The notes under the pieces are model-generated. The model saw nothing but the letters and a program-made list of their open reading frames with translations, was not told where the DNA came from and ran no database searches. A stretch of DNA of 34,011 nt, from the NCBI GenBank assembly GCA_003242315.1, contig QGUY01000007.1:1-34011 (forward strand). Direction: 5' to 3'. The DNA comes from Bacteroidota bacterium (GTDB lineage: Bacteria; Bacteroidota; Bacteroidia; Cytophagales; Cyclobacteriaceae). Both the position numbers and the translations under genes were made by a program. Positions 16,178 through 31,465 of the stretch are shown here, piece by piece. Each line of letters begins with the position of its first letter. Within the stretch, counting starts at the first letter, position 1.

Positions 16178-17830
16178 ATGTTACCCACCCATAATCCTAC
16201 TGAACTTCCAGCCTGGCGTCAGCTCGAAGCTCACTTTCTTCATTTGCAGGCCGTACACATGCGTGACCTCTTTGCAGAAGATCCAGGACGCTTTGACAGG
16301 TTCCATGCGCAGTTTGAGGACATCCTGGTCGATTACTCCAAGAACCTCATCACGCCGGAAACGATGGCGCTGCTGATACAGCTGGCTCAGGAAGCCGGAC
16401 TGGAAGAATCGATCCACGCGATGTTTTCAGGGCAGCCCATAAATCGCACAGAAGGCAGGCCGGTCCTTCACATCGCGCTGCGCAACCGTACCAACGAGCC
16501 CATATACGTCAACGGTGAAGATGTCATGCCCGACGTAAACCGCGTGCTCGACCATATGAAGAGGTTTTCCGAAGAAGTGATTTCAGGTGCCTGGAAGGGA
16601 TGCACGGGCAAAACCATTACCGATATCGTCAACATCGGCATCGGAGGTTCCGACCTGGGTCCTTTGATGGTGACCGAGGCGCTCCGCCCCTACTGGAAAA
16701 ACATCACGCCACACTTTGTGTCCAACATCGACGGGACACACATCCAGGAAACGTTGAAAAGAGTTGACCCGGAAAGAACCCTTTTCATCATCGCGTCAAA
16801 GACTTTCACCACACAAGAAACCATGACCAATGCCATGACGGCGCGGGAATGGTTTCTTTCCAAAGCGGGAAGTCAGGCCGACGTTTCCCGGCACTTCGTT
16901 GCCGTCTCCACCAACACAAAGGCGGTGAAGGAGTTTGGGATCGCCACGGATAACATGTTTGAATTCTGGGACTGGGTTGGCGGAAGGTATTCGCTTTGGT
17001 CCTCCATCGGCTTGTCGATCGCATGCACGCTCGGCTTCGAGAACTTTCAGGCGCTGCTTGAAGGAGCGCACGCCATGGACCAGCATTTCAAGAACACGCC
17101 CTTCGAAAAGAACATACCGGTGGTGCTGGCGATGATAGGCATCTGGTACAATAACTTTTTCGGCGCTGCCACGGAGGCTATCCTCCCCTACGATCAATAC
17201 CTGCACCGGTTCGCCGCGTACTTCCAGCAGGGCAATATGGAAAGCAACGGCAAGTCGGTTGACAGAACCGGCAAACCCGTTAACTACCAGACCGGACCTG
17301 TCATCTGGGGTGAACCCGGCACCAATGGTCAGCACGCGTTCTATCAACTCATACACCAGGGCACGAAGTTGATCCCGTGTGACTTTATCGCGCCAGCCAT
17401 CAGCCATAATCCTGTGGGTGATCATCACGCGAAACTCCTCTCCAACTTCTTCGCACAGACGGAAGCGCTCATGAAAGGCAAGCCAACCGAAGAGGTGGAA
17501 CGAGAACTTGCCCAGGCAGGCATGGATACCGAAGCGATACGATTCCACGCACCCTTCCGTACCTTCGAAGGGAACAGGCCTTCCAACAGCATCCTGTTCC
17601 GGCAGCTCACGCCCCGCACCCTTGGCTCGCTCATAGCGATGTATGAGCACAAGATTTTTGTACAGGGAATAGTTTGGAACATCTACAGTTTTGACCAATG
17701 GGGTGTCGAACTCGGCAAGGTTCTCGCGCGCAAAATCCTGCCCGAACTTGAAACTCCAGAAGAAATCACTTCACACGACGCGTCAACAAATGGGCTAATC
17801 AACTATTTCAAACGTTTGAAATTCAGATGA
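16178..17830 (+). CDS. pgi: Glucose-6-phosphate isomerase
   Basis: The 550-residue enzyme interconverts glucose 6-phosphate and fructose 6-phosphate in the cytoplasm. It is the long PGI type (about 550 residues, as in E. coli). The phosphate-binding [11 protein letters not shown] is near residues 151-161. The PGI signature [14 protein letters not shown] contains an active-site Arg. [19 protein letters not shown] carries the catalytic Glu region, and the C-terminal signature [17 protein letters not shown] ends the domain. All motifs are intact. It is the first gene of a rightward cluster with pfkA (61-bp gap) and a ROK glucokinase. Confidence 0.97.
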
Positions 17831-17839
17831 TTGATTAGT

Positions 17840-17872
17840 TCTGCATAAAATCATAACGAGTTCTTAATTTTA
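17840..17872 (+). promoter_or_regulatory. Putative pfkA promoter
   Basis: TCTG and TAATTTTA (consensus TTTG / TAnnTTTG) are separated by 21 bp in the pgi-pfkA gap, 19 bp before the pfkA ATG. Each box has one mismatch, so pfkA may be read both from here and from pgi. Confidence 0.4.
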
Positions 17873-17891
17873 CCGGAATTCATTGGTCCAA

Positions 17892-18878
17892 ATGGAAAAG
17901 GAGATAGGCAAGATCGGTGTCTTCACGTCCGGCGGTGACGCGCCTGGAATGAACGCAGCGATCCGTGCAGTGGTGCGATCAGCGATATACTACAAGAAGG
18001 AAGTGTACGGGATCATGCGCGGATACGAGGGCATGATCGAGGGCGATATTGTTCGCCTGGGCGCACGTTCTGTCAGCAACATTATTCAGCGGGGTGGCAC
18101 CATCCTGAAGACGGCACGCTGTCAGGAGTTCCGGACGGTAGAAGGACGGAAGAGGGCTTACGAAAGTCTCAGGAAGATCGGCATCGATGCCCTGGTTGCC
18201 ATCGGGGGAAACGGTACATTCACCGGCCTCCACAAATTTTACGAGGAACACGGCATTCCCTCGATATGCATACCCGGCACCATCGATAACGACCTTCCCG
18301 GAACCGACTTCAGCATTGGCTATGACACAGCTACCAACACCGCTGTGGAAGCCATTGACAAGATCCGCGATACCGCGCTCTCGCATAACCGCGTGTTCTT
18401 TATCGAGGTGATGGGCCGGCATTCCGGATACATAGCTGTAAACAGCGGCGTTGCGGGAGGAGCTGTCGCGATTATCCTGCCGGAGGAGACGACGACCTTC
18501 GACGAACTGTTTGCCGCACTCGAAGCCGGTGAGAAGACGAACAAGAAGTCGAACCTCGTCGTGATCGCTGAAGGCTCAAAGATCGGCGGTGCTTACGAAC
18601 TGGCACGAAAGGTCAAGGAACGTTCGTCGTACTTCGACATCAAAGTCACGATCCTCGGTCACCTGCAACGCGGTGGTTCACCTACGTACTTTGACCGGGT
18701 GCTCGCCAGCAAGATGGGCGTAGCAGCGGTTGAAGGGCTGCTGCAAGGAAAGCGCGACGCAATGGTCGGTATCAAAGGCAATAAAATCGTGTACAACGAC
18801 TTTAAGACCATTATCGATGTTCCGAGCAACGAGATTGATGCGGAGTCGCTCCGCATTGCCAAAATCCTTTCCATATAA
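17892..18878 (+). CDS. pfkA: 6-phosphofructokinase
   Basis: A 328-residue enzyme of the bacterial PfkA type, which phosphorylates fructose 6-phosphate to fructose 1,6-bisphosphate. The ATP-site GGDAPGMNAAIR is at about residues 14-25. The catalytic block PGTIDNDL has both catalytic Asp residues (130 and 132). MGRHSGYIA and HLQRGGSPT (substrate and effector contacts) follow. The usual GGDGS/T motif reads GGNGT at 105-109: the Asp that helps hold Mg-ATP is Asn (codon AAC). The Gly after it is kept, which is typical of ATP-using rather than pyrophosphate-using enzymes. ATG at 17892 is preferred to the TTG at 17883. Confidence 0.94.
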   Translation: MEKEIGKIGVFTSGGDAPGMNAAIRAVVRSAIYYKKEVYGIMRGYEGMIEGDIVRLGARSVSNIIQRGGTILKTARCQEFRTVEGRKRAYESLRKIGIDALVAIGGNGTFTGLHKFYEEHGIPSICIPGTIDNDLPGTDFSIGYDTATNTAVEAIDKIRDTALSHNRVFFIEVMGRHSGYIAVNSGVAGGAVAIILPEETTTFDELFAALEAGEKTNKKSNLVVIAEGSKIGGAYELARKVKERSSYFDIKVTILGHLQRGGSPTYFDRVLASKMGVAAVEGLLQGKRDAMVGIKGNKIVYNDFKTIIDVPSNEIDAESLRIAKILSI

Positions 18879-18950
18879 TGAATGATTCTCAGCAGGAATT
18901 TGTGGTAAACAAGCCGGCGGTTATCCGGTAACTCTAACGAGGTAATACAA

Positions 18951-19937
18951 ATGAGAGAAGTAACTATCGGCATTGACATCGGCGGCACGAACACCAAGTT
19001 CGGAATTGTCGACAAAGAAGGTCATGTAATCACCCAGGGTAGCATCTCTACGGCAAAACACGAGGAGTTCCGGGATTACTTTAAAGAGCTGGCCGGCGCC
19101 TTGCGCAAGTCGCTTAACGAACTCGGGTCAGACTACAAACTCCTCGGCATCGGAGTCGGTGCGGCCAATGGCAACTATTATAAGGGCACTATCGAACGCG
19201 CCACCAACCTTAAGTGGAAGGGTATCATTCCCCTCGCAGACATGTTCCGCGAAGAATTCGATATCCCGGCCATCATCACGAACGATGCAAACGCAGCCGC
19301 TGTAGGCGAAATGGTCTACGGTGCCGCCAAAAAGATGAAGGACTTCATCGTCATAACGCTCGGCACAGGCCTTGGCAGCGGCTTTGTCGCAAACGGTCAA
19401 TTGCTCAATGGCAAACACGGTATTGCCGGAGAACTCGGACATACATCTGTAAATCCTGCAGGTCGGTATTGCAACTGCGGAAAGCGCGGCTGCCTTGAAA
19501 CGTATGTGTCGGCCACCGGCATTAAGCGCACGGTTTATAAACTCCTCGCCGATCACCTTGAACCGAGTGAATTGCGGGGTATCAGCTTCGACAACCTCAA
19601 CACGAAGATGATCACCGAATGTGCCATTCGCGGTGACGATGTCGCGCTGGCCGCTTTTGAATACACCGGACGTATCCTGGGGATGAAGCTCGCCGATACT
19701 GTTGTGCACACCGACCCCGAGGCCATCTTCCTGTTTGGAGGGCTTTCACTTGCGGGTGACCTGATCTTCAAGCCAACCATTCGGCACATGGAAGCGAACC
19801 TTATGCCCCTGTTCCGGGGTAAGATCAAGGTATTGCCTTCGGCCCTTCAAAATCAGGCAGCTCCGATCCTCGGCGCGAGCAGCCTGGTGTGGAATTACCT
19901 GGAGAATGAACCGTCAAGGAGGATGATTCCTTCCTAA
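18951..19937 (+). CDS. ROK-family glucokinase
   Basis: The 328-residue sugar kinase belongs to the ROK family. The N-terminal phosphate-binding loop is DIGGTNTKFG (9-18), the catalytic Asp is in NDANAAA (Asp112), and the zinc site consists of ELGHT (His164) with CNCGKRGC (Cys174, 176, 181). There is no DNA-binding domain, so this is a kinase rather than a ROK repressor. Glucose is the most likely substrate, given the neighbours pgi and pfkA; allose, mannose or N-acetylglucosamine cannot be excluded. It would produce glucose 6-phosphate for Pgi. Its TAA stop overlaps the TAG stop of the converging GH57 gene by 3 bases within CTAA. Confidence 0.92.
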   Translation: MREVTIGIDIGGTNTKFGIVDKEGHVITQGSISTAKHEEFRDYFKELAGALRKSLNELGSDYKLLGIGVGAANGNYYKGTIERATNLKWKGIIPLADMFREEFDIPAIITNDANAAAVGEMVYGAAKKMKDFIVITLGTGLGSGFVANGQLLNGKHGIAGELGHTSVNPAGRYCNCGKRGCLETYVSATGIKRTVYKLLADHLEPSELRGISFDNLNTKMITECAIRGDDVALAAFEYTGRILGMKLADTVVHTDPEAIFLFGGLSLAGDLIFKPTIRHMEANLMPLFRGKIKVLPSALQNQAAPILGASSLVWNYLENEPSRRMIPS

Positions 19938-22354
19938 GCAGATTGTTGCGCTTCGGGAATCTCGACCTTGACGCGCAGGTTTTCGCCGAGAAGGTGAAAC
20001 TGTTTCAGCCAGGCCTCAGAGTGACCGTCGCGCAACAGATCTTTTCTTGAGATGAGGAAATACAGGTTTTGACTCTTGTAGAGATTCGGCTTCAGGTCGA
20101 ATTTCAACAGCAACGGGAACACGCGATTGAGTCGCTCAATCCGACGTTGGTTCTCGATCTCTTCCGTAGCAATCAATTGCAATTCGTTGTAGATGCGATC
20201 TCCCGCCAATCGCGCCACCTTGTCCGGATCCTCGATCGTAAGCTTCCATTTATCCAACTCTCCCATAATCCGTTCCAGTTCTTTGATGTTGATCTTATCG
20301 GAACGGAACCAGTTGAGCAGATCGGCATTGAGAACATATTGAAACGTCTGCCGGTAAGCGTTGGGAATAGGAACATCGTTGTTGTCGAGCGCAGTTACAA
20401 GCGGATAGTCGTGATTATAAATTCTGCGTAACGAGTACTCCAGTTCTTCGAGACTCTTGCGCGTGATCATGTCGAGAACCTTGCGCTTTTCGTCCTTGAA
20501 CAGGTGCCACAGCGTGTACTTATCGGGACCGAAATAGGTTTGCATAAGCCCGATCACATCACCCAGCCTGCCCTCCTGGAATGCGCGTACGATGCGCACC
20601 TGCATGCTGTGGAACTTGTCGACCTGCATCTCCTGGGATATGTTGCCGATGATATTATGCTTTCCCATGTACACCACGCAGAACGCGAAACGTTTCTCGG
20701 TACGCGTTACATTTGATTTAACAAGCGTGATACCGAGGACGAGGCGTTGCTCCCCGGCTTCTTTCCGGATAAAGAATTCGTTCGTTGTCGTGTGGTTGAA
20801 CACAGGGAAGTTTTCCGGGTCTTCTTCAAACAACGACGAAACTGCATAGTGCATCCCCACGCGTTGGAGGTTCGTTTTGGCGGGCAATACGAAGCGATGG
20901 TACGCCTGGGCCGCATTCCCGATCATCGGAATGTTGCTGGGAACATCTTCGAGTTTCTTGATGAACTCCGCCTCCAGCTTGGCATCAGAAACCTGGTTGG
21001 CAAGTTGGATTGCGCGACACGCGTACTGTAGAATCTGTGTCGTTTCGATTCCCGACACTTCATCGAAGAACCACCCGCAACTCGTGAACATCAGCATAGC
21101 ATGCCGTTGCATTTCCAGCAACCGCAGAATGTGATTGGCCTGCGTCTCTACGGAACTGTGTTCCTTCAGGAAACGGTCAACCACCTCATCCCTCCTGTCG
21201 AGGATTACGCTGATGTATTCATTTCTCGCATGCCACGGGTCTTTGAGTATCAGCGAACCCTCGAAGCTGTATATCCGGGTTAACTGATCGCGTAGCCAGT
21301 CAAGTGCTTCCCGCAGCGGCTTCCTCCACAATTGATTCCATTCGGGATGGCCACCGGTATTGCAACCACAGTTGTCTCTCCAACGCTCTACGCCATGCAC
21401 GCAGCTCCACGAACTGTTCTCGTGAATCATGCACTCATCGGTAACCTGAGTCATTGCAAGGTACTCACCGTAGTTCGTGAGACGAGCGTTGCTGCTGTTG
21501 TCGATCTGATCGAGGCAATACGCCAGGGCCATATCACCGTGCTTGTGATGGTGGCCATAGGTTTCTCCGTCCGTGGCAATGTTGACGAGCTGGCGCTCGG
21601 TGCGCGCATCAAAGCCGTCCATAAGTGCCCGCGCAAAACGGTCACCGTCGTTGAGCAGACCATTAAAGGCCACAGACTGTGAGAGTGGGCCATGGTAGAA
21701 GAAGATCGTAATTGATCTGCCTGATGGTAGCGGACACGTGTAAGGCCGGCGTGTGTCGAGCAACGATTCGTCTACCTCCTGCCAGCTTTTTGCGCCGATT
21801 TTGCGGACTGCCCTGGCCTGCCGCGGAGCGAGTATGGTGAACTTAATACCGTATTTGGCGAGAAGCTCAAGGGTTTCGAGATCGACAGCCGTCTCAGCCA
21901 GCCACATGCCTTCAGGATGGCGCTTGAATCTGAAGACGAAGTCTTTGATACCCCAATATATCTGGGTCTCCTTGTCGCGGGAGTTACAGAGCGGCATGAT
22001 GGCATGGTTGTAGACCTGCGCCAGCGCCGAACCATGTCCTGAAAACCGCGAAGCGCTTTCCGCATCAGCCCGCAGAATCGCTTCATACGTTTCGGGGTCA
22101 TTTTGCTGCATCCATGAGAGCAGCGTCGGACCGAAGTTGAAGCTGATGCGCGAATAGTTATTGATGATGTTTCGGATGATGCCCTTGGAGTCGAGGATAC
22201 GCGAAGCCGTGTTCGGCGCGTAGCACTCGGCAGAAATCCGCTCATTCCAGTCATGATACGGATGCGCCGAATCCTGCACCTCTATGACTTCCAGCCACGC
22301 GTTTTCACGCGGCGGCTGATAAAAATGACCATGTATACAAATATATCTCTCCAC
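19934..22354 (-). CDS. GH57 family glycoside hydrolase with DUF3536
   Basis: The 806-residue protein has an N-terminal GH57 catalytic domain and a C-terminal DUF3536 region. GH57 landmarks are visible: HGHFYQPPRENAW (residues 8-20, the HQP-like block), MWLAETAV with Glu154 in the nucleophile position, and ATDGETYGHHH with Asp262 in the acid/base position. Known GH57 enzymes act on alpha-1,4 or alpha-1,6 glucans (amylase, glucanotransferase, branching enzyme); the exact activity of DUF3536 members is not established. No signal peptide is present, so it should act on cytoplasmic glycogen-like glucan. The start is GTG. It is the last gene of the operon, 36 bp after glgB. Confidence 0.9.
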   Translation of the reverse strand: MERYICIHGHFYQPPRENAWLEVIEVQDSAHPYHDWNERISAECYAPNTASRILDSKGIIRNIINNYSRISFNFGPTLLSWMQQNDPETYEAILRADAESASRFSGHGSALAQVYNHAIMPLCNSRDKETQIYWGIKDFVFRFKRHPEGMWLAETAVDLETLELLAKYGIKFTILAPRQARAVRKIGAKSWQEVDESLLDTRRPYTCPLPSGRSITIFFYHGPLSQSVAFNGLLNDGDRFARALMDGFDARTERQLVNIATDGETYGHHHKHGDMALAYCLDQIDNSSNARLTNYGEYLAMTQVTDECMIHENSSWSCVHGVERWRDNCGCNTGGHPEWNQLWRKPLREALDWLRDQLTRIYSFEGSLILKDPWHARNEYISVILDRRDEVVDRFLKEHSSVETQANHILRLLEMQRHAMLMFTSCGWFFDEVSGIETTQILQYACRAIQLANQVSDAKLEAEFIKKLEDVPSNIPMIGNAAQAYHRFVLPAKTNLQRVGMHYAVSSLFEEDPENFPVFNHTTTNEFFIRKEAGEQRLVLGITLVKSNVTRTEKRFAFCVVYMGKHNIIGNISQEMQVDKFHSMQVRIVRAFQEGRLGDVIGLMQTYFGPDKYTLWHLFKDEKRKVLDMITRKSLEELEYSLRRIYNHDYPLVTALDNNDVPIPNAYRQTFQYVLNADLLNWFRSDKINIKELERIMGELDKWKLTIEDPDKVARLAGDRIYNELQLIATEEIENQRRIERLNRVFPLLLKFDLKPNLYKSQNLYFLISRKDLLRDGHSEAWLKQFHLLGENLRVKVEIPEAQQSA

Positions 22355-22390: not shown

Positions 22391-24364
22391 TCACGAGCCA
22401 TCAAACTCAAATTCCGCCACCTCCCTTTCACACTTCAGCACCGAAACGGCCAGCGGAGGAAGCGTCAATGTAATTGAGTAATCGCGTCCGTGATACTTCA
22501 CTGGGGAAGTCATAAACAACCCTGTGTTCAAAATGCCGCTGCCTCCATAGGCGCGGTCGTCCGTGTTCAGCACTTCCTTCCAATATCCCCGGTACGGCAC
22601 ACCTACCCGATAGTGATTCCTTACCGCGGGTGTAAAATTGCAAATCACGACGAGCAAGTCCATGGGATCATCACCCTGTCGCTGGTAGATAATCACACTG
22701 TTCTCACGGTCGCTGTAATCTACCCACTGAAATCCCCGGTGATCAAAGGCGTACTGGTACAGCGCTTTTTCTGTACGATAAAACCGATTTAGCTCTTTAA
22801 TAAGTTTCTGAACGCCTTTATGAAAATCGTATTCCAGCAGGTGCCAGTCCAGACTATGGTTATGATTCCATTCCGACGTCTGACCAAACTCGCCACCCAT
22901 GAACAACAACTTGGTCCCGGGGTGCGTGTACATGTATGCGTACAACAACCTAAGATTAGCGAACCGCTGCCAATCATCGCCGGGCATTCGACCAATAAGT
23001 GATCCTTTTCCATGAACCACTTCATCGTGCGAAAGCGGCAACATGAAGTTCTCCGTGAACGCGTACATCAGGCTGAAGGTAATCTCATTCTGATGGTACT
23101 TTCGGTGTATCGGATCTTTCCGGAAGAAGTTCAGCGTATCGTGCATCCACCCCATCATCCACTTTTGACCGAATCCGAGGCCACCCAAATAGGTCGGTCT
23201 GGAAACGCCGGGCCATGACGTCGACTCCTCCGCGATGGTGACACAATCCGGTACCTCGCCGTACACTACTTCATTAAATTCTTTCAGGAAGCTGATGGCT
23301 TCGAGGTTTTCGTTGCCACCATATTGATTCGGTATCCACTCACCGGGTTTGCGCGAATAGTCGAGATACAGCATCGACGCTACCGCATCGACACGTAGGC
23401 CGTCGGCATGAAAGCGTTCCAGCCAGAACAACGCATTGCTTATCAGGAAGCAACGTACCTCGTTGCGACCGTAGTTGAATATGTAGCTCTTCCAGTCGGG
23501 ATGAAATCCCTTTCTCGGGTCGGCGTGCTCATACAGATGAGTTCCATCGAAATTGAAAAGTCCGTGGGCGTCGCCAGGAAAATGCGAAGGCACCCAATCG
23601 AGGATAACGCCTATACCTTCCTGGTGGAAGCGATCGATCAGGTACATGAAATCCTCAGGAGTACCAAACCGACTTGTTGGCGCGTAGTAACCAGTGATCT
23701 GGTATCCCCATGATCCAAAGAACGGGTGCTCCATCACGGGAAGAAATTCAACATGCGTATAACCCATGTCACGCACGTAGGCCACCAATTCGTTGGCCAG
23801 TTCGGTGTAATTCAAAGAGCGGTTGTTATCGTGCAGCACTTTTTTCCACGACCCGATATGAACCTCGTACACTGCATAAGGTTTTGCTTTTGCTGGCGGA
23901 TGTTCCCTGCGTTGCTTCATCCATACGTCATCACGCCATTTGTAGTCGTGCTCCCACACGATCGAAGCCGTCATTGGCGGCGGCTCGCAGTAAAAAGCGA
24001 ATGGGTCTGCTTTTTCCAGCAATTCTCCGGTATTGGAACGGATGGCGTACTTGTACGCTTCTCCCTTGCCTATGTTGGGAAAGAATCCCTCCCAGATGCC
24101 ACTTTCGTCCCAACGAGCGTGAAGAAGATGACGACCCGGTTGCCAATGATTGAAATTCCCGATTACGGAAACCTGGCTTGCATTTGGTGCCCAGACGGCA
24201 AAGTACGTACCCCGCTCACCCTTGTATTCCATTGGGTGTGCGCCCAACTTTTCATAAAGCCGAAAGTGCTTGCCTGCTTTGAACAAATAGATGTCAAAGT
24301 CGGTAAGCAGACTAAACGATTCAGTCGTCTCTTCTGTGGTTTTACTTTTCGTCCTCTTTCCCAT
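22391..24364 (-). CDS. glgB: 1,4-alpha-glucan branching enzyme (GlgB)
   Basis: The 657-residue GH13 enzyme transfers an alpha-1,4 chain segment to a 6-hydroxyl, making branches. It has one N-terminal CBM48 domain (about 40-140, [23 protein letters not shown]) and the catalytic barrel with the nucleophile in [10 protein letters not shown] (Asp326), the acid/base in [13 protein letters not shown] (Glu379) and the third acid in [12 protein letters not shown]. The C-terminal beta domain is complete. It is a shorter form than E. coli GlgB (about 730), lacking the extra N-terminal module. The ATG directly follows the treS-maltokinase stop codon. In the GlgE pathway GlgB branches the linear chains that GlgE extends. 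Confidence 0.96.
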
Positions 24365-27300
24365 CTATTTTGACACCTTTTTTTCGGTACGTGGGCGTTT
24401 GTTCTGTTCCTTGAAATACCGCGTCATGTGATACAATATACCTCTTAGAGGGACAATAGCCCAATCGGGTCGACCGTTCAGTTCATACCCCAGCTCGTAT
24501 ACCGCTTTCTCGAGCAGGAAAGTGCGGATCAGCACCTCATGCTCGTTGGTAAACCCTTTCTCTCCGGTTCTCTCTAGATAGGCGCCCATATAGTACCGTG
24601 CCACATAGTGTTGCCACTGCTCCGCCCAGGCCTCAAGGGTTCCCCGATCCTGTTCGCGGTAGTTCTCATTGAGCAGAATTTTTCCGAATGCCGCATAATG
24701 GATGGAGCGCATCATACCCGCCACATCTTTGAGCGGGTGCTTTTTGAGCCTCCTTTCGCTAAAAGAAAATCCAGGTTCTCCTTCAAAGTCGATGATGATG
24801 AAGTCTTTTCCGGTAAACAACACCTGGCCCAGATGGTAGTCGCCGTGAATCCGCGTCTTCATCGCGCGAATGCGGGTCTTGTATATCTCGCTGAAGCAAT
24901 CGAGAATGTCGTCTTCAAGGGCAAGCACCTTGTTGGCAACTGCACGCGTCTCCGGCAGCAATTCCGGAAGCGCTTGTCGCAGCATATTGAACCGCTCGCG
25001 CACCAGCTTCCTCAACGATGAATACAACGATCGCTGGTAGTTGGCCGTGAACGGCTCCGGCGCAAATGCCGGATCTCCATCCGGTTTGGATGCAAGAGCG
25101 AGGTGCAATTCCGCCGTCCGTTGCCCGAGACGCGCGATCCGTTCGTAGAACCCGCGACCGATCAGCGTCTGAATAAGCAGCGGCGACTCCTCAAATCGCA
25201 ACACCGGGCGATCGACAAGCGGTGGGATGTTATCCCTGTCAGGACTTACCAGCACGCGCTCGTAAAATCTTCCAACCGAATCGACCGTCATCACCCACGC
25301 ATCGCCCTGGTGTTCCACCTTTTCCTGCATGAGGGCGAACACATATGTGCCGCCGGTTTCATCTCGCAATTCAATGCTCCCCGCAAAACGCGGGCTGTTT
25401 CGGAATGTCGTGTTCTCCGTAAGGAATCTTATGATCTCCGGCTCCGGGTTCAGCTCGGGCTCGATCTTTCGATAGAACTTCAGGAAATACTGGTCGTTGT
25501 AAATGATGGCTGTATTGCTCTGATCAGACTTCAGCAATCGTGACTCCACATCACGCGCCTTGGAGTGGCGGGAGAATAATCCTGAGCGGAAATACAACAC
25601 AGCATTCCCTTCCTTGATCTGCGTATCACGCTGAATTGATGAAAACAGGTAGTCGCGGAACGGGCGTATGTAACTGCTGTCCATGACAAAGCCTACCGTG
25701 GCGTGAAGCTCAGCGCGACATACCACGGCCTGAACTGTGTATTCCGCCTTCTCCATGAGCTGATCGGCAGGAACAAAGCCCAAAGGGATGAAATAGAATT
25801 CGGGAAGTCCCTGCACGTATTGTATTTCAAGAATCGCGAGGTGGTACGTTTCGTCCTCCACCCTGAGCGGAAACGTCTTGTGAAAGCGAATACCACCGAT
25901 AGGTCTTGCCTTTCCTCCGAACCAGCGACACTTCCTGATAAACAACGGAAGAATCTTGCGTTCCAGGGTGCGGACTGCGTTGTAGTTCCCGAGTAGGCGC
26001 TCCCAGGTGAGGTCGGCGCGCAACTCAGGCAGTTCCGCATCGCCTTCCTGTCGCGCTCCAATGTCTGATGTATCTACTTCAAACCAGAAATATCCGTAAG
26101 GACCAAGGGTAATGTCGTAGTCGCCGTTGCCAATGCTTTTGAATCGGTTCTGACTAAACGCCTCGGTGACGTCGCAATTCTTGAAATCGGAAAGATCAAG
26201 AACGGCCGACTGCGAGAACTGCGACAGGTTTGCGACGACGATCACGTGTCGTGACTCTAACGTCCGGACAAAGCAGAGTATCTTGGAATTGGAGCTGTGC
26301 AGGAATTTCATGCTGCCACGTCCGAATGCCAGAATGCGTTTTCTTACGGCTATGATATGTTTGATCCAGTGCAGCAGCGATGAGGGATTCTCCTCCTGCA
26401 TCCTGACGTTTACCGACTCGTATCGATAGACGGGATCGGTGTTTACCGGCAGATATAATTTCTGAGGGTTTGCGCTGGAGAACCCTGCATTGATGTTCAT
26501 GTCCCACTGCATGGGTGTCCTCACTCCTGCCCTTCCTCCCAGATATACGTTGTCGCCCATTCCAATCTCATCACCGTAGTAAATTACTGGTGATCCGGGG
26601 AGCGAGAACAGCAGGGCATGCAGCAACTCGATTTTTCGTCGATCGTTATTCAGTAGAGGCGCTAATCTTCGGTTGATGCCCGTATTGAATTTTGTACCCG
26701 GATCATTGGCGTAGGCTTTGAAGAGATAGTCTTTCTCTTCTTCCGTCACCATTTCGAGACCCAATTCATCGTGATTGCGAAGGAACAACGCCCACTGTCC
26801 TTCCGGTGGAATCTCTGGCGTTTGGCTGATGATGTCCGTTATGGGATAATTATCCTCCGTGCGCAGCGACAGAAAAATCCTCGGCATGAGCGGATAGTGA
26901 AAGGCCATGTGACATTCGTCACCTTCACCGAAATAGCTGGCCGCATCTTCAGGCCAGAGGTTTGCTTCCGCTATGAGAATGCGGTTCTCATAGTGCTTGT
27001 CCATGTGCGCGCGGAGCTTACGCACGAACGCATGGGTTTGTGGCAGGTTTTCACAGCCAGTACCTTCTTCTTCAAAGAGGAAAGGTACTGACGACAACCT
27101 GAAGCCATCAACGCCTTTCTTCAGCCAGAAATCCGCGACGCGGATCATTTCGATCTGAACCTTCGGGTTGTCGTAGTTAAGTTCCGGAAGGTACCGTCCG
27201 AACCGGCTCCAATAGTACGCCCCCGCTTCTTCATCCCACGTCCAGTTGGAAGTGTTGGAACCCAACACCCGCGCATCAGCGTAGCGCGTGTTATCATCGC

Positions 27301-27709
27301 TCCATACGTAATAGTTTCGTGCAGCGCTTGATGGCTTTTCTTTTTTCGCTCGCTTGAACCAGGGATGTTCGTCGGACGTGTGGTTCAGGATCAGTTCGAT
27401 GATGACGCGCATACCGCGGCGTTGGGCTTCCCGGAGGAAAGCGCGGAAGTCGGCCATCGTTCCATACTCCGGCGCCACTTCGCAATAGTCGGTTACATCG
27501 TAGCCGTCATCTCTTAGTGGCGAAGGATAGAACGGCAGTAACCAGATTGTATTGATGCCGAGGTCTTCGAGATAGTCAAGTTTCTGGATGAGGCCAGGGA
27601 AATCGCCAATGCCGTCACCGTTGCTGTCGTGAAAAGCACGCACGGACAGTTCATAGATGATGGCATCCTTGTACCAAAGCTTCCGACCGTTTTTCAGTTT
27701 GGCGCCCAT
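24365..27709 (-). CDS. treS: Trehalose synthase-maltokinase fusion (TreS-Mak), TreS nucleophile missing
   Basis: The 1114-residue protein joins a GH13_16 trehalose synthase domain (about 1-545) to a maltokinase (about 590-1100). TreS interconverts trehalose and maltose; maltokinase phosphorylates maltose to maltose 1-phosphate, the GlgE substrate. TreS landmarks: WYKDAIIYELSVRAF, NHTSDEHPWF, the acid/base in IAEANLWPED (Glu248) and NHDE (Asp314). The nucleophile motif, usually RLDAVPY, reads RLSSVPF at 204-210, so the catalytic Asp is Ser206 (codon TCG). The kinase has HGDYHLGQ (955-962) and DFEGEP (Asp974), both intact. ATG at 27709 is used; its A is the last base of the glgE stop codon. The isomerase activity is therefore doubtful, the kinase activity likely. 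Confidence 0.94.
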   Translation of the reverse strand: MGAKLKNGRKLWYKDAIIYELSVRAFHDSNGDGIGDFPGLIQKLDYLEDLGINTIWLLPFYPSPLRDDGYDVTDYCEVAPEYGTMADFRAFLREAQRRGMRVIIELILNHTSDEHPWFKRAKKEKPSSAARNYYVWSDDNTRYADARVLGSNTSNWTWDEEAGAYYWSRFGRYLPELNYDNPKVQIEMIRVADFWLKKGVDGFRLSSVPFLFEEEGTGCENLPQTHAFVRKLRAHMDKHYENRILIAEANLWPEDAASYFGEGDECHMAFHYPLMPRIFLSLRTEDNYPITDIISQTPEIPPEGQWALFLRNHDELGLEMVTEEEKDYLFKAYANDPGTKFNTGINRRLAPLLNNDRRKIELLHALLFSLPGSPVIYYGDEIGMGDNVYLGGRAGVRTPMQWDMNINAGFSSANPQKLYLPVNTDPVYRYESVNVRMQEENPSSLLHWIKHIIAVRKRILAFGRGSMKFLHSSNSKILCFVRTLESRHVIVVANLSQFSQSAVLDLSDFKNCDVTEAFSQNRFKSIGNGDYDITLGPYGYFWFEVDTSDIGARQEGDAELPELRADLTWERLLGNYNAVRTLERKILPLFIRKCRWFGGKARPIGGIRFHKTFPLRVEDETYHLAILEIQYVQGLPEFYFIPLGFVPADQLMEKAEYTVQAVVCRAELHATVGFVMDSSYIRPFRDYLFSSIQRDTQIKEGNAVLYFRSGLFSRHSKARDVESRLLKSDQSNTAIIYNDQYFLKFYRKIEPELNPEPEIIRFLTENTTFRNSPRFAGSIELRDETGGTYVFALMQEKVEHQGDAWVMTVDSVGRFYERVLVSPDRDNIPPLVDRPVLRFEESPLLIQTLIGRGFYERIARLGQRTAELHLALASKPDGDPAFAPEPFTANYQRSLYSSLRKLVRERFNMLRQALPELLPETRAVANKVLALEDDILDCFSEIYKTRIRAMKTRIHGDYHLGQVLFTGKDFIIIDFEGEPGFSFSERRLKKHPLKDVAGMMRSIHYAAFGKILLNENYREQDRGTLEAWAEQWQHYVARYYMGAYLERTGEKGFTNEHEVLIRTFLLEKAVYELGYELNGRPDWAIVPLRGILYHMTRYFKEQNKRPRTEKKVSK

Positions 27710-29670
27710 CACTGATAGGATTCGTGCATTTCGAGCTTGAACAGGTGAAAAGGCATCACGTACGGGTCAAGTTCCACGTAGTTCCACTCCTGTGTCCAGG
27801 TATAGTGTTCATCCGTGACAAGATCGTGAAGCTTGATGTTAATCGGCCATTGCAGCTTCAGCGCATCCATGGGTATTTGCACATAGCCCGAATGTCGGGC
27901 ATGCGGATCCAGGTTCACAACGATCAGGAAAATACTGTCGAGATCGTCAGTAGCTTTGAGGTAAGCAATGAGGTTTGGATTCTCAATGTTGAGGAAGCGA
28001 ACATTCCACGTCGACTGAAGGGCGGCGTGTTCCTTACGCGCCCTGTTGAGGATCGTAATAATGTCCGTCATCCGGTTCGTCTTCTTCCAGGCATAATGCT
28101 TAATCTCGTATTTCTCTGAATCGAGGTATTCCTCCTTTCCTTCCACCGGAACATTCTCGCAGAATTCGTACGGGGGACCATAGATGCCGTAATTCGAAGA
28201 TAGCGTGGCCGCGAGGGCCAGCCGTATGATGAAGATATTCTCACCCTGATGCTGCAGGTGATACGGGAGAATGTCCGGTGTATTCGGCCAGAAGTTGGGA
28301 CGGAAGTAATTGCGTAGCTCAGTGTTGACGAGCTCATTCATGTACTCCGTCAACTCGCTGCGCGTCACACGCCACGTGAAATAGGTATACGATTGCGTGA
28401 ACCCGACGCGGGCAAGCGCCGCCATCACCTTCGGCCGCGTGAATGCTTCCGACAGAAAGATGATGTCCTCATAGCGCTTATTCACTTCCGAAATAACCCA
28501 TTCCCAAAAACGTATGGGCTTGGTATGCGGATTATCGACACGAAATATCTTTACTCCCTGTTCTATCCAATAGAAAAACACTGAACGAAGTTCTTCCCAC
28601 AACGCCTTCCAGTCATCGGTTTCAAAATTAAACGGATAGATATCCTGATACTTTTTGGGTGGGTTTTCCGCGTATTGTATTGAGCCGTCAGGCCGCCTCC
28701 GAAACCATTGCGGATGTTCCTTAACATACGGATGGTCTGGCGCGCATTGAAACGCTATGTCCATCGCGATGTCGATACCGAGCTTTGAAGCGGCTTCGAT
28801 CAATGCGCGAAAGTCATCAAGAGTACCCAACTCCGGGTGAATGCTTTTGTGCCCGCCGTGTTTGCTCCCTATCGCCCACGGCGAACCAGGCTCTCCAGGT
28901 GTTGAACGCTCGGAATTGTTTTTCCCTTTCCGGTTGATTTCGCCGATGGGGTGTATTGGAGGCATGTACAGGACGTCAAACCCCATGGCATGAAGGCGCG
29001 GCAGGAGACGTATCACATCTCTGAACGTGCCGTGCCGTCCTCCTTCCAGCGCCGCAGACCGCGGAAACAGTTCATACCACGTGCTGAAATTGGCCTTCCG
29101 ATGTTCGACGCGTATGCGCAACTCCGGGGAATAGAGCGCGACATGTTGTTCGAGTGGATGGTTGTGAACGATGTCGGCAAATTCACGGCTCAATACCTGC
29201 GCTCGGACTTCGGCATGTTTCGAGACGTCAGCCATCAGAGCGACGAGCTCTGCTATCCGGGGAGAAGCGTCTTCCTTCGTTGCGGCGCGCAGGAGTTCGC
29301 CTCCTTCGAGCATTTCCGCAGCGGTGTCCACGCCTGCGGCTGCCTTCTTGCGAAAGCCGTCATACCACGTGTCCAGATGATCGATCCATGCTTTCACAGT
29401 GAAGACGTACATTCCCTTTTCGGAAGCCGTGAACGACGCCTTCCACCGATCGTTGTTCTCATGAATCATTTCCACGCGGGTCCACTCCTGCATGGACTCA
29501 TGGCGATACAACAGGACGGCCCGAATATGATCGTGGCCGTCAGCAATGATGTCGGCAGTTACTTCGACCTTTTCTCCTACTGTTCGCTTTGCGGGATAGC
29601 GGCCACCATCAACCGATGGTTGCACATTATTGATGAGAACCCGTACCCTTCCATCCACATCCGCAGTCAT
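27709..29670 (-). CDS. glgE: Alpha-1,4-glucan:maltose-1-phosphate maltosyltransferase (GlgE)
   Basis: The 653-residue GH13_3 enzyme extends alpha-1,4-glucan by transferring maltose from maltose 1-phosphate with release of phosphate. An N-terminal immunoglobulin-like domain (about 1-105) is followed by a helical insert typical of GlgE and the barrel. MPPIHPIGEINRKGKNN is the family fingerprint near residue 236. The nucleophile is in IFRVDNPHTKP (Asp379), the acid/base in FLSEAFTRPK (Glu408), and the C-terminal beta domain ends the protein. All catalytic residues are present. It starts 10 bp after the amylase stop codon and shares one base with the treS-maltokinase start (TGATG). Confidence 0.96.
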   Translation of the reverse strand: MTADVDGRVRVLINNVQPSVDGGRYPAKRTVGEKVEVTADIIADGHDHIRAVLLYRHESMQEWTRVEMIHENNDRWKASFTASEKGMYVFTVKAWIDHLDTWYDGFRKKAAAGVDTAAEMLEGGELLRAATKEDASPRIAELVALMADVSKHAEVRAQVLSREFADIVHNHPLEQHVALYSPELRIRVEHRKANFSTWYELFPRSAALEGGRHGTFRDVIRLLPRLHAMGFDVLYMPPIHPIGEINRKGKNNSERSTPGEPGSPWAIGSKHGGHKSIHPELGTLDDFRALIEAASKLGIDIAMDIAFQCAPDHPYVKEHPQWFRRRPDGSIQYAENPPKKYQDIYPFNFETDDWKALWEELRSVFFYWIEQGVKIFRVDNPHTKPIRFWEWVISEVNKRYEDIIFLSEAFTRPKVMAALARVGFTQSYTYFTWRVTRSELTEYMNELVNTELRNYFRPNFWPNTPDILPYHLQHQGENIFIIRLALAATLSSNYGIYGPPYEFCENVPVEGKEEYLDSEKYEIKHYAWKKTNRMTDIITILNRARKEHAALQSTWNVRFLNIENPNLIAYLKATDDLDSIFLIVVNLDPHARHSGYVQIPMDALKLQWPINIKLHDLVTDEHYTWTQEWNYVELDPYVMPFHLFKLEMHESYQ

Positions 29671-29680
29671 GCGTTGCGCG

Positions 29681-31465
29681 TTATTTGATTTTGAAAATGA
29701 AACAACTGTAGGGCTTCATGAGCAATTCAAAGCTCATATTCTCATCGAATCCAACCTCTACTTCTCTCCACAAAAGATCGCGCGCAATGTACACTGCTTC
29801 TTCATCCAATCCGGCAGCATCGGCTACTTCTGGTGGTATCTGAAACCGCACCGTCTTGGGTTCGCTGTTGAAGCTGTTTATCACCAGCATTTTTTCATCC
29901 GCGGCCACGCGCATGAACGCGTGTATATCCGGAGTGATGTTACCCTTGCTTACGTTATACGCGGTGATGTCGTAATACTCACCCGATGTAAATGCAGGGT
30001 TAGACCCTGCCAGGCTGAGAAGGTCCGTGTAGAACATGCGTAGTTGTTTTTGTTCAAGTGAAAGAAGGCCGCCGTCAAACGCACCGCCGTTCATCCACTT
30101 TTGGTGCTCAGGTACACCCCAGTAATCGTATATCGTTGTGCGGCCATCTTCTCCGGAGAAGCCTTCATCCCCCGCACCCGGCTCACCAACCTCCTGTCCG
30201 AAATAAATCATCACAGGACCCCGATCAATGGTCGCGCTGATCACCATGGCGGGACATCCTTTCCATATGTCGCCCGCAAAGAACCTCGAAGCCAATCGTT
30301 GCTCATCGTGGTTCTCCATAAAGTGGAGCATATTGTGATTGATGCCTTTTAGCCGTTGTTGAATTCCGTCTATTGCGACGGTACTGCCCTTTCCGCCCAC
30401 CAGATTGCGGAGCGTGTCGTACAGGAGGACCTTGTCGTAAAGAAAATCAAAGCCACCCTGACTCAGATAGTCTTTGTATTGATCGGGGTTGTAGATCTCG
30501 GCAATGAACACAACTTCAGGATTCACTTCCTTCACCTGTGGTATCACCCAGTTCCAAAATTCCACGGGAACCATTTCAGCCATGTCGCACCGGAAGCCAT
30601 CTACCTTCTTATTGGCCCAAAAGACCAGGACGTCCTTCATTTTGTTCCAGGTATCCGGCACAGGATCGAATGACTTTGCGCCTCCACCCTGAATGTCCAC
30701 ACCATAATTAAGCTTCACCGCTTCGAACCAATCGTCAACCGATGGATCGGGGCGGAATTGGTTATTCGCTGTCACCTTCGCCGGCGATTCGGTGTAATGA
30801 CCTTGCATGCCGGGCGGCAAAGTTCTGCGAGGGGGTACGAATGATGTTGCCGGCAAGTAATAGAAGTTGTTGTTAGGACGATATGCCACAGTGGGATCAT
30901 CGTCTTCGCCAAAGTCGCGCACACCTTCAGGTTTGTTGTCGGAGCGATAAGCACGCGCGACGTGATTCGGCACAAAGTCGATGATAACTTTAAGCCCCGC
31001 CGCGTGTGTACGCGCCACGAGCGCTTCAAACTCCTTCATCCGATCGGGAACGCTGACCGCGAGATCGGGATCGACGTCATAGTAATCGCGAATGGATTAT
31101 GGAGATCCGGCGATACCTTTGACGACGGCCGGGTCGTCGGCTGGAATGCCGAACGAGGAATAGTCGGAAAGCGTGGCATGCTCCAGTACACCCGTATACC
31201 ATACGTGGGTGACGCCCATTTCGCGAAGGGCAACGAGGGCCGTGTCAGTGATATCGTTGAATTTTCCAACGCCATTCACCTCCCGCGTACCGTATTTCTG
31301 ATTGACTTGTGTCTTGTTTCCGAAAAGGCGGGGCAGCATTTGATAGATAATCATCCTTCCGGGCGGTTTCGGTGTATTCACAGGCGGAATTCTTTCCTTA
31401 GGTGAAGAACAGAATGTGAACAAAATTGGAAGACATAGACCTAGCAGCAGTACTGATCTTTTCAT
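29681..31465 (-). pseudogene. Alpha-amylase family (GH13) gene interrupted by an in-frame TAA
   Basis: One continuous reading frame of 594 codons is broken only by a TAA at 31097-31099 (codon 123). Before it is an N-terminal secretion signal (MKRSVLLLGLCLPILFTFCSS, possibly lipoprotein but with an unusual Phe before the Cys) and the start of the barrel. After it the protein goes on as SIRDYYDVDPDL, exactly where GH13 proteins read SPYAIRDYYDV; the lost residue was probably Tyr. Downstream, VDGFRCDMAEM (nucleophile), VVFIAEIYN (acid/base) and MENHDEQR are intact. An internal ATG at 31039 could give a 452-residue product without export signal and without the first barrel strands. A sequencing error is possible. 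It is the first gene of the glgE operon. Confidence 0.85.

Follow-up and report, generated by a model that had tools for sequence, protein, structure and literature searches.

A clade of trehalose synthase–maltokinase fusions from Cyclobacteriaceae without the trehalose synthase nucleophile, and a probable maltose-fed route to glycogen

The 34,011 nucleotides analyzed here (the window; positions 1 to 34,011 of the forward strand of contig QGUY01000007.1, NCBI GenBank assembly GCA_003242315.1, from a member of the Bacteroidota placed in the family Cyclobacteriaceae) include a gene for a two-domain protein in which trehalose synthase (TreS) is followed by maltokinase (Mak), and the TreS half of this fusion lacks the Asp that serves as catalytic nucleophile. 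The translation of the open reading frame includes GVDGFRLSSVPFLFEEEG, and all features are collected in Table 1. The first half has the TIGR02456 sequence and the fold of a trehalose synthase, with the acid/base Glu and the second catalytic Asp in place and the nucleophile absent, while the second scores above the TIGR02457 cut-off and keeps the kinase motifs of a maltokinase. The motif RLSSVPF pairs gap-free with RLDAVPY in an alignment with the solved trehalose synthases 5x7u and 5h2t, and the Ser codon, TCG, differs from GAC and from GAT at all three bases in either case. Residues are numbered from the GTG start, so that the nucleophile position is 207; counting from the next Met, as in the original prediction, it is 206. 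That prediction, made from the DNA letters by themselves, had described the altered motif, had argued that it was no sequencing slip, and had listed Glu248 and Asp314 (here Glu249 and Asp315), HGDYHLGQ and DFEGEP as intact; codon reading and alignment bear out each of these statements, and the loss turns out to be wider than had been noted. Sequencing or assembly error is ruled out by the absence of Asp from 78 distinct sequences. It had also been said that a nucleophile Asp at another position would overturn the reading; the gap-free alignment has no Asp at a neighboring position, and a shift to the adjacent column is ruled out.

Table 1. Features of the window, their positions, and the basis on which they were assigned
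Feature	Position	Strand	Basis or remark
TreS–maltokinase fusion open reading frame	24365-27712	minus	1115 codons, GTG start; TreS domain then Mak domain
TreS domain, residues 1-550	26063..27712	minus	TIGR02456 799 bits, cut-off 678; trehalose-synthase fold without catalytic nucleophile
Mak domain, residues 561-1115	24365..26032	minus	TIGR02457 450 bits, cut-off 375; PDB maltokinases 4o7o, 5jy7, 4u94
Ser207 codon TCG, nucleophile position	27092-27094	minus	codon reading and alignment
Glu249, general acid/base, present	26966-26968	minus	codon reading and clade alignment
Asp315, transition-state stabilizer, present	26768-26770	minus	codon reading and clade alignment
Mak catalytic loop HGDYHLGQ, residues 956-963	24824..24847	minus	motif intact
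Mak metal-binding motif DFEGEP, residues 975-980	24773..24790	minus	motif intact
GlgE, maltose-1-phosphate maltosyltransferase	27709..29670	minus	PF11896 match at 29104-29643
GlgB branching enzyme	22391..24364	minus	NF003811 986 bits, cut-off 741
GH57 glycoside hydrolase, DUF3536 type	19934..22354	minus	homologue at relative locus L106 (67% identical) matches PF03065, PF12055
Lipoprotein GH13 amylase gene	29681..31465	minus	one in-frame TAA at 31097-31099
pgi, pfk, ROK glucokinase genes, convergent with operon	16178..19937	plus	homologues at L106

The loss of Asp is clade-wide within the same family and not an oddity of one genome. In a first survey the four closest relatives (66-68% identical) read RLPN, RLAS, RLSS and RLSS, and RLDA is found in all nine of the next relatives that have a locus, at 46-53% identity. 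Among the best 80 of 110 relatives found in a scan of genome contigs, Asp is absent from 74 (Pro in 30, Ala in 23, Ser in 14 and Gly in 7), which are 59-69% identical and without exception carry the title of some Bacteroidota; the six with Asp are 44-50% identical and come from Acidobacteria (4), Omnitrophota and Arboricoccus. We assembled 119 distinct fusions by extracting 124 proteins, of which five were duplicates, and admitting only those of more than 1000 residues; L020, which has Asp and was missed by the extraction filter, the lone TreS proteins L143-L150 and the partial L151 stand outside this set. The nucleophile column holds Asp in 41/41 of the fusions outside the clade and in 0/78 clade members, where Pro (31), Ala (25), Ser (15) and Gly (7) take its place. 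In a tree calculated without columns 205-212 one branch splits the 78 from the Asp fusions with a Shimodaira–Hasegawa-like approximate likelihood ratio (SH-aLRT) support of 100, and the five residue classes are related by 20 changes in total, with no reversion to Asp; the tree comes from a quick LG+G4 search that gave long-branch warnings. The nucleophile-less class (56-69% identical) occurs in at least 93 of 390 genomes sampled from Cyclobacteriaceae, and in the sample of 390 genomes from the order copies at least 65% identical are confined to this family, those of other families reaching 53% at most. Cultured bacteria with a fusion of this class include Chryseolinea serpens (L045) and Ohtaekwangia koreensis (L068). 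The original prediction had proposed checking by alignment whether Ser is fixed in a clade: the loss of Asp is indeed fixed (78/78), but Ser is not, as Pro, Ala, Ser and Gly interchange. Because the position varies in this way, with relatives that carry Pro, Ala or Gly instead, Ser as a new nucleophile is ruled out, and since no one residue type takes the place of Asp the view that a new catalytic mode is the less likely alternative gains support. Our search of the open-licence literature found no description of a TreS without its nucleophile.

The remainder of the TreS pocket has largely been kept. D72, N110, H111, R205, R312, N313, H314, D315 and R398 show no variation across the 78 clade fusions and E249 is Glu in 76/78 and Asp in 2/78; on the kinase side K745, H956 and D975 are found in 78/78 and D958 in 77/78. 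Mean pairwise identity within the clade (600 sampled pairs) is 79% for the TreS half vs 73% for Mak, the corresponding values among Asp-bearing fusions being 73% and 43%. The ratio of non-synonymous to synonymous substitution rates (dN/dS) of the TreS half could be calculated for 14 of 17 close pairs and lies between 0.005 and 0.038, with dS above 1 (saturated) in several, and dN is lower for TreS than for Mak in 12/17 pairs. Of 191 TreS columns that are invariant in the active group 136 remain at least 97% identical in the nucleophile-less clade, and 21 columns that are near-fixed in the active group have mostly changed, including 177 (Glu for Asp), 208 (Ser or Asn for Ala), 211 (Phe for Tyr) and 318 (Gly for Thr); variation at the nucleophile position is free, among small residues only. 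As alignment columns, 78, 82, 162, 184, 215, 440, 441, 472, 514, 531 and 550 have newly common Asp or Glu in the clade. An AlphaFold2 (AF2) model of the TreS domain, calculated from 36 sequences, has a predicted local distance difference test score (pLDDT) of 83 and a predicted template modeling score (pTM) of 0.87, and its best PDB fold match is the trehalose synthase 5x7u, with a template modeling (TM) score of 0.91; this domain model was used instead of a full-length model that was set aside (pLDDT 72.5, barrel partly below 50). The pattern in the alignments is that of a retained pocket minus the nucleophile rather than of decay, and the loss of an essential catalytic residue from a domain that has a conserved predicted fold and is under strong purifying selection is one mark of a pseudoenzyme.

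The fusion gene lies in an operon in which GlgE, maltokinase and GlgB, the components of the GlgE pathway, are encoded together. In relatives that could be tested glgE lies at most 300 bases upstream of the fusion (69/71), glgB comes next downstream among the genes tested (69/69), and GH57 then follows (60/60); a GH13 amylase is found upstream in 56/58 and a second, SusG-like GH13 in 28/58. Of 52 relatives with a sufficiently long flank, 29 have at least one of pgi, pfk and the ROK glucokinase gene there. The amylases encoded in the window and at L106, and the SusG-like enzymes at L106 and L045, have N-termini that read as lipoprotein signals, and because of this apparent signal the operon amylases are probably exported. 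The in-frame TAA in the amylase gene of the window would mark either a pseudogene or an assembly error; the homologous frame is open over at least 600 amino acids in L045 and L106.

In order to place the fusion in its metabolic setting we surveyed 80 genomes, 39 of which have the nucleophile-less copy only, 17 both this and an active copy, 16 the active copy only, and 8 a copy that is 45-48% identical. The genomes were hand-picked, mostly for completeness (at least 93%), the class of a copy was assigned by its identity to P0001 (56-69% for nucleophile-less) and not by reading each codon, and a gene is counted as absent if it gave no match at the threshold named; Fisher tests of co-occurrence overstate the significance, the genomes being related. 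Gene content switches with the class of the copy. Each of the 39 nucleophile-less-only genomes has exactly one TreS match at E ≤ 1e-130, and a second, active TreS that could supply the isomerase was not found in them at that threshold. MalQ is found in 0/39 of them, in 16/17 genomes with both copies (the remaining one, G222, has only a weak match), in 16/16 active-only genomes and in 8/8 with the 45-48% copy, and the figures for TreY (E ≤ 1e-60) are 0/39, 16/17, 16/16 and 1/8. OtsA exceeds its cut-off in 9/39, 14/17, 16/16 and 8/8, respectively, with a weak match below cut-off in one further nucleophile-less-only genome, so that 30/39 show no TreY and no OtsA above cut-off. GlgE, by comparison, is present in 37/39, 17/17, 16/16 and 0/8. 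Glycogen synthesis via GlgC and GlgA was considered and rejected, as GlgA is over the family cut-off in 0/80 genomes (the nearest being G274, 322 bits vs 328, then G003 with 259) and GlgC is found in 6/80, five of them nucleophile-less-only. The best GlgA match in nearly all 80 is a protein of ∼270-340 amino acids that matches the N-terminal half of GlgA only. The expectation in the original prediction that the maltokinase relies on maltose from elsewhere thus receives strong indirect support from 39 genomes without other TreS, TreY or MalQ.

A strong GH65 match (E < 1e-130) occurs in 37/39 nucleophile-less-only genomes, 17/17 with both copies, 0/16 active-only and 2/8 with the 45-48% copy; among the 16 active-only genomes weaker GH65 matches are of a longer type in six and of a short type only in three. 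The GH65 of G231 scores 801 bits with its closest match, maltose phosphorylase 1h54, vs 419 bits with kojibiose phosphorylase. A gene for β-phosphoglucomutase adjoins that for GH65 in three of four genomes tested (G231, G305 and, at L182, the genome of the window), the tested neighbor in the fourth, G329, having matched nothing. GH65 and the nucleophile-less fusion share a contig in 25/54 genomes and are at most 60 kb apart in 20 of these 25. A second, shorter GH65-type protein (∼680 amino acids, weaker match) is seen in G017, G086, G231, G305 and others, and in some genomes (G086, G231) it lies between GH65 and the glycogen operon.

The genome from which the window derives, a 569-contig assembly, has the nucleophile-less copy as its sole TreS match, together with OtsA, and no match to TreY or MalQ. 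It can thus probably make trehalose via OtsA, as judged from its genes, and no route from trehalose to maltose was found among the genes searched; in terms of gene content the usual maltose source of the GlgE pathway, trehalose via an active TreS, is missing. The picture is similar in four nucleophile-less-only genomes that are single contigs (G194, G231, G308, G329): each has a single TreS and neither TreY nor MalQ, and G308 retains OtsA.

Genomes that carry both copies are informative as to which of the two serves glycogen synthesis. A second, active copy accompanies the nucleophile-less one in 19/390 genomes of the family, and it has Asp in all 17 of the 19 that were read. The 17 both-copies genomes surveyed have one GlgE each, in 17/17 cases no more than ∼2 kb from the nucleophile-less copy, and the flanks of the active copy in five of them (L159-L163) hold no glgE and no close glgB, with one GlgB-like match of 27% near that of L162; in five active-only genomes (L164-L168) the active copy is flanked by glgE on one side and glgB on the other. 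Because GlgE adjoins it and the active paralogue stands without glgE, it is the nucleophile-less copy that holds the glycogen operon. A putative TreY-MalQ fusion lies near the active TreS-Mak in G095, G218, G234, G279, G286 and G298; in these and other genomes a single open frame of ∼1400-1470 amino acids contains both the MalQ and the TreY match, which suggests such a fusion.

The mirror case exists as well. The kinase Asp of HGD is lost in 4 of the 41 fusions with intact TreS (L022, L152, L153 and L156, from G004, G107, G104 and G100, respectively), and GlgE was found in 0/3 of those genomes that were surveyed (G004, G104, G100). In one nucleophile-less fusion (L121, contig C185 of G306) the kinase motifs are altered too, to HGN and DFQGEP, GlgE was not found in G306, and both halves may be inactive. 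An intact kinase thus tends to go with GlgE, and an intact TreS with the trehalose genes, so far as genes and motifs can tell, although not as a strict rule, since G003, G087 and G154 are without GlgE yet keep HGD, with other motif changes.

We consider it probable that the TreS half has been conserved as a pseudoenzyme domain, that the kinase works, and that maltose and not trehalose is the precursor of glycogen in these bacteria. No interconversion of trehalose and maltose would be expected because the covalent glucosyl-enzyme intermediate needs the Asp nucleophile; without it the double-displacement chemistry of TreS would stop and the kinase would then need free maltose. The mechanism is joined here by a published mutant, D201A of a characterized TreS, which retained 4.76% activity (PMC3797794), D201 being equated with the nucleophile in our analysis by the order of motifs. 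The Mak half would convert maltose to maltose-1-phosphate, from which GlgE and GlgB of the same operon would make glycogen. Maltose itself would arise from breakdown of starch or glycogen by the amylases of the operon or, alternatively, from GH57 transglycosylation or maltose phosphorylase, and not from trehalose. We infer this maltose feed and, above all, a binding or regulatory role of the TreS half, which would be kept as structural platform of the fusion and whose largely intact pocket most likely binds an α-glucoside without turnover; the retained residues favor such a role over that of a bare scaffold, the original prediction having put forward both a scaffold and a module that binds maltose or trehalose. 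Possibly the domain also senses maltose and gates the kinase, a natural substrate trap in which bound maltose would switch the fused maltokinase on. The fold matches of the TreS model include, by title, the sugar-bound GH13 mutants 4ha1 (D200A-D415N) and 3wy3 (D202N), whose mutated Asp residues are, we presume, the nucleophiles, and these structures indicate how the TreS pocket may behave; in both cases sugar is still bound once the nucleophile is removed, the difference being that they are engineered and the loss described here is natural and clade-wide.

Several points weigh against this explanation. The co-occurrence counts were made across related genomes and cannot be taken as independent events. 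OtsA is kept in nine of the 39 nucleophile-less-only genomes, that of the window included, and absence of trehalose is not implied in the remainder, as the search covered OtsA, TreY and TreS and not further routes (TreZ, and trehalases too). GH65, a candidate source of maltose, tracks the presence of the nucleophile-less copy and not the absence of active TreS. Activation of the kinase by the TreS half has weak precedent because the mycobacterial effect is nil or modest, with no rise in Pep2 activity by TreS of M. smegmatis and a modest boost in M. tuberculosis (PMC6509496). Finally, the kept acid/base and Asp315 appear to exceed what a scaffold needs and would also fit changed catalysis.

It is conceivable, if unlikely, that the TreS half is an inert scaffold that only holds the kinase in an oligomer and binds no ligand, its pocket being conserved for folding. 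In mycobacteria a TreS tetramer serves as the platform for maltokinase (PMC6509496), the fusion from Estrella forms a homodimer (PMC7935935), and the AF2 model predicts an intact fold. However, E249, D315, H314, R205 and D72 are kept in 76-78 of 78 members, TreS overall evolves no faster than the kinase (the dN comparison above), and columns that neighbor the catalytic residues along the sequence (208, 211, 318) have been re-fixed rather than set free. A relic on its way out is scarcely credible: the nucleophile is lost and the searched trehalose genes are mostly missing from the lineage, but the dN/dS values and the 136 conserved columns given above speak otherwise (the length of the fusions is no evidence here, only proteins of more than 1000 residues having been admitted).

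The remaining alternatives keep the pocket at work. The vacated site might run a nucleophile-free reaction using Glu249, for example phosphorolysis with inversion, in either direction, with the cavity taking up phosphate or β-glucose-1-phosphate, and this we regard as very unlikely. The other catalytic residues are conserved, new residues are fixed beside the nucleophile position, the replacements are all small (Pro, Ala, Ser, Gly) and may leave a cavity, and β-phosphoglucomutase together with GH65 implies β-glucose-1-phosphate in these genomes; on the other side, two members have Asp as acid/base, the nucleophile position has no fixed polar residue and most often holds Pro, GH65 could already provide the phosphorylase reaction, and the newly common Asp or Glu at columns 78, 82, 184, 441 and others are alignment positions only. 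The specific version in which β-glucose-1-phosphate and glucose would yield maltose that feeds the fused kinase is, in our estimate, a long shot. A residual or rescued isomerase, with interconversion via another carboxylate such as Glu177 (Asp in the active group), is most improbable. Asp177 has become Glu in 73/78 members and the D201A mutant mentioned above was not fully inactive, but five nucleophile-less members keep Asp177, so that Glu177 is not a general substitute, and the 30 genomes with neither OtsA over cut-off nor TreY count against it too.

The explanation preferred here, a maltose-fed pathway with a noncatalytic TreS domain, may be compared with known systems. The Estrella TreS-Mak fusion (PMC7935935) has the same two-domain order and a glgE-treSmak-glgB operon, but its TreS half was measured to be active on trehalose, whereas here the nucleophile is absent and the searched trehalose genes are mostly missing across the clade. 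In the mycobacterial TreS:Pep2(Mak) complex (PMC6509496, PDB 5jy7) a TreS fold with a platform role adjoins maltokinase; there, by contrast, the polypeptides are separate, TreS is active and there is no channeling between sites. A GlgE pathway fed by maltose has precedent because MalQ-made maltose bypasses TreS in Pseudomonas aeruginosa, where the TreS-Pep2 fusion can phosphorylate maltose made without TreS (PMC11046441); the difference is that MalQ is found in none of the 39 nucleophile-less-only genomes. The locus of Pontibacter sp. SGAir0037 (PMC11206854) likewise brings together amylases, GlgE, TreS, GlgB and a GH57 with 4-α-glucanotransferase activity, which resembles the GH57 of the window by family and not by established orthology, but it also has TreY, TreZ and GH77, and here TreY and GH77 are found in 0/39 (TreZ was not searched). 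rBAT appears among the sequence matches of the fusion. Together with 4F2hc it represents the non-enzymatic GH13 proteins, membrane-transporter partners that have kept the fold without a hydrolase role; the present case differs in that the GH13 domain is fused to a kinase and has kept its catalytic residues except the nucleophile.

TreS-Mak is usually read as the step that provides trehalose-derived maltose-1-phosphate for glycogen. For this clade automatic pathway annotation is probably misleading, as the domain models and the operon are kept and the isomerase nucleophile is gone, and the clade points instead to a GlgE pathway running on maltose. In the TreS half nature provides a GH13 pseudoenzyme whose active site is nearly complete, and, taken together with the mirror case of an altered kinase, an intact TreS and no GlgE, the question of how fused enzymes lose one activity yet keep the domain becomes testable.

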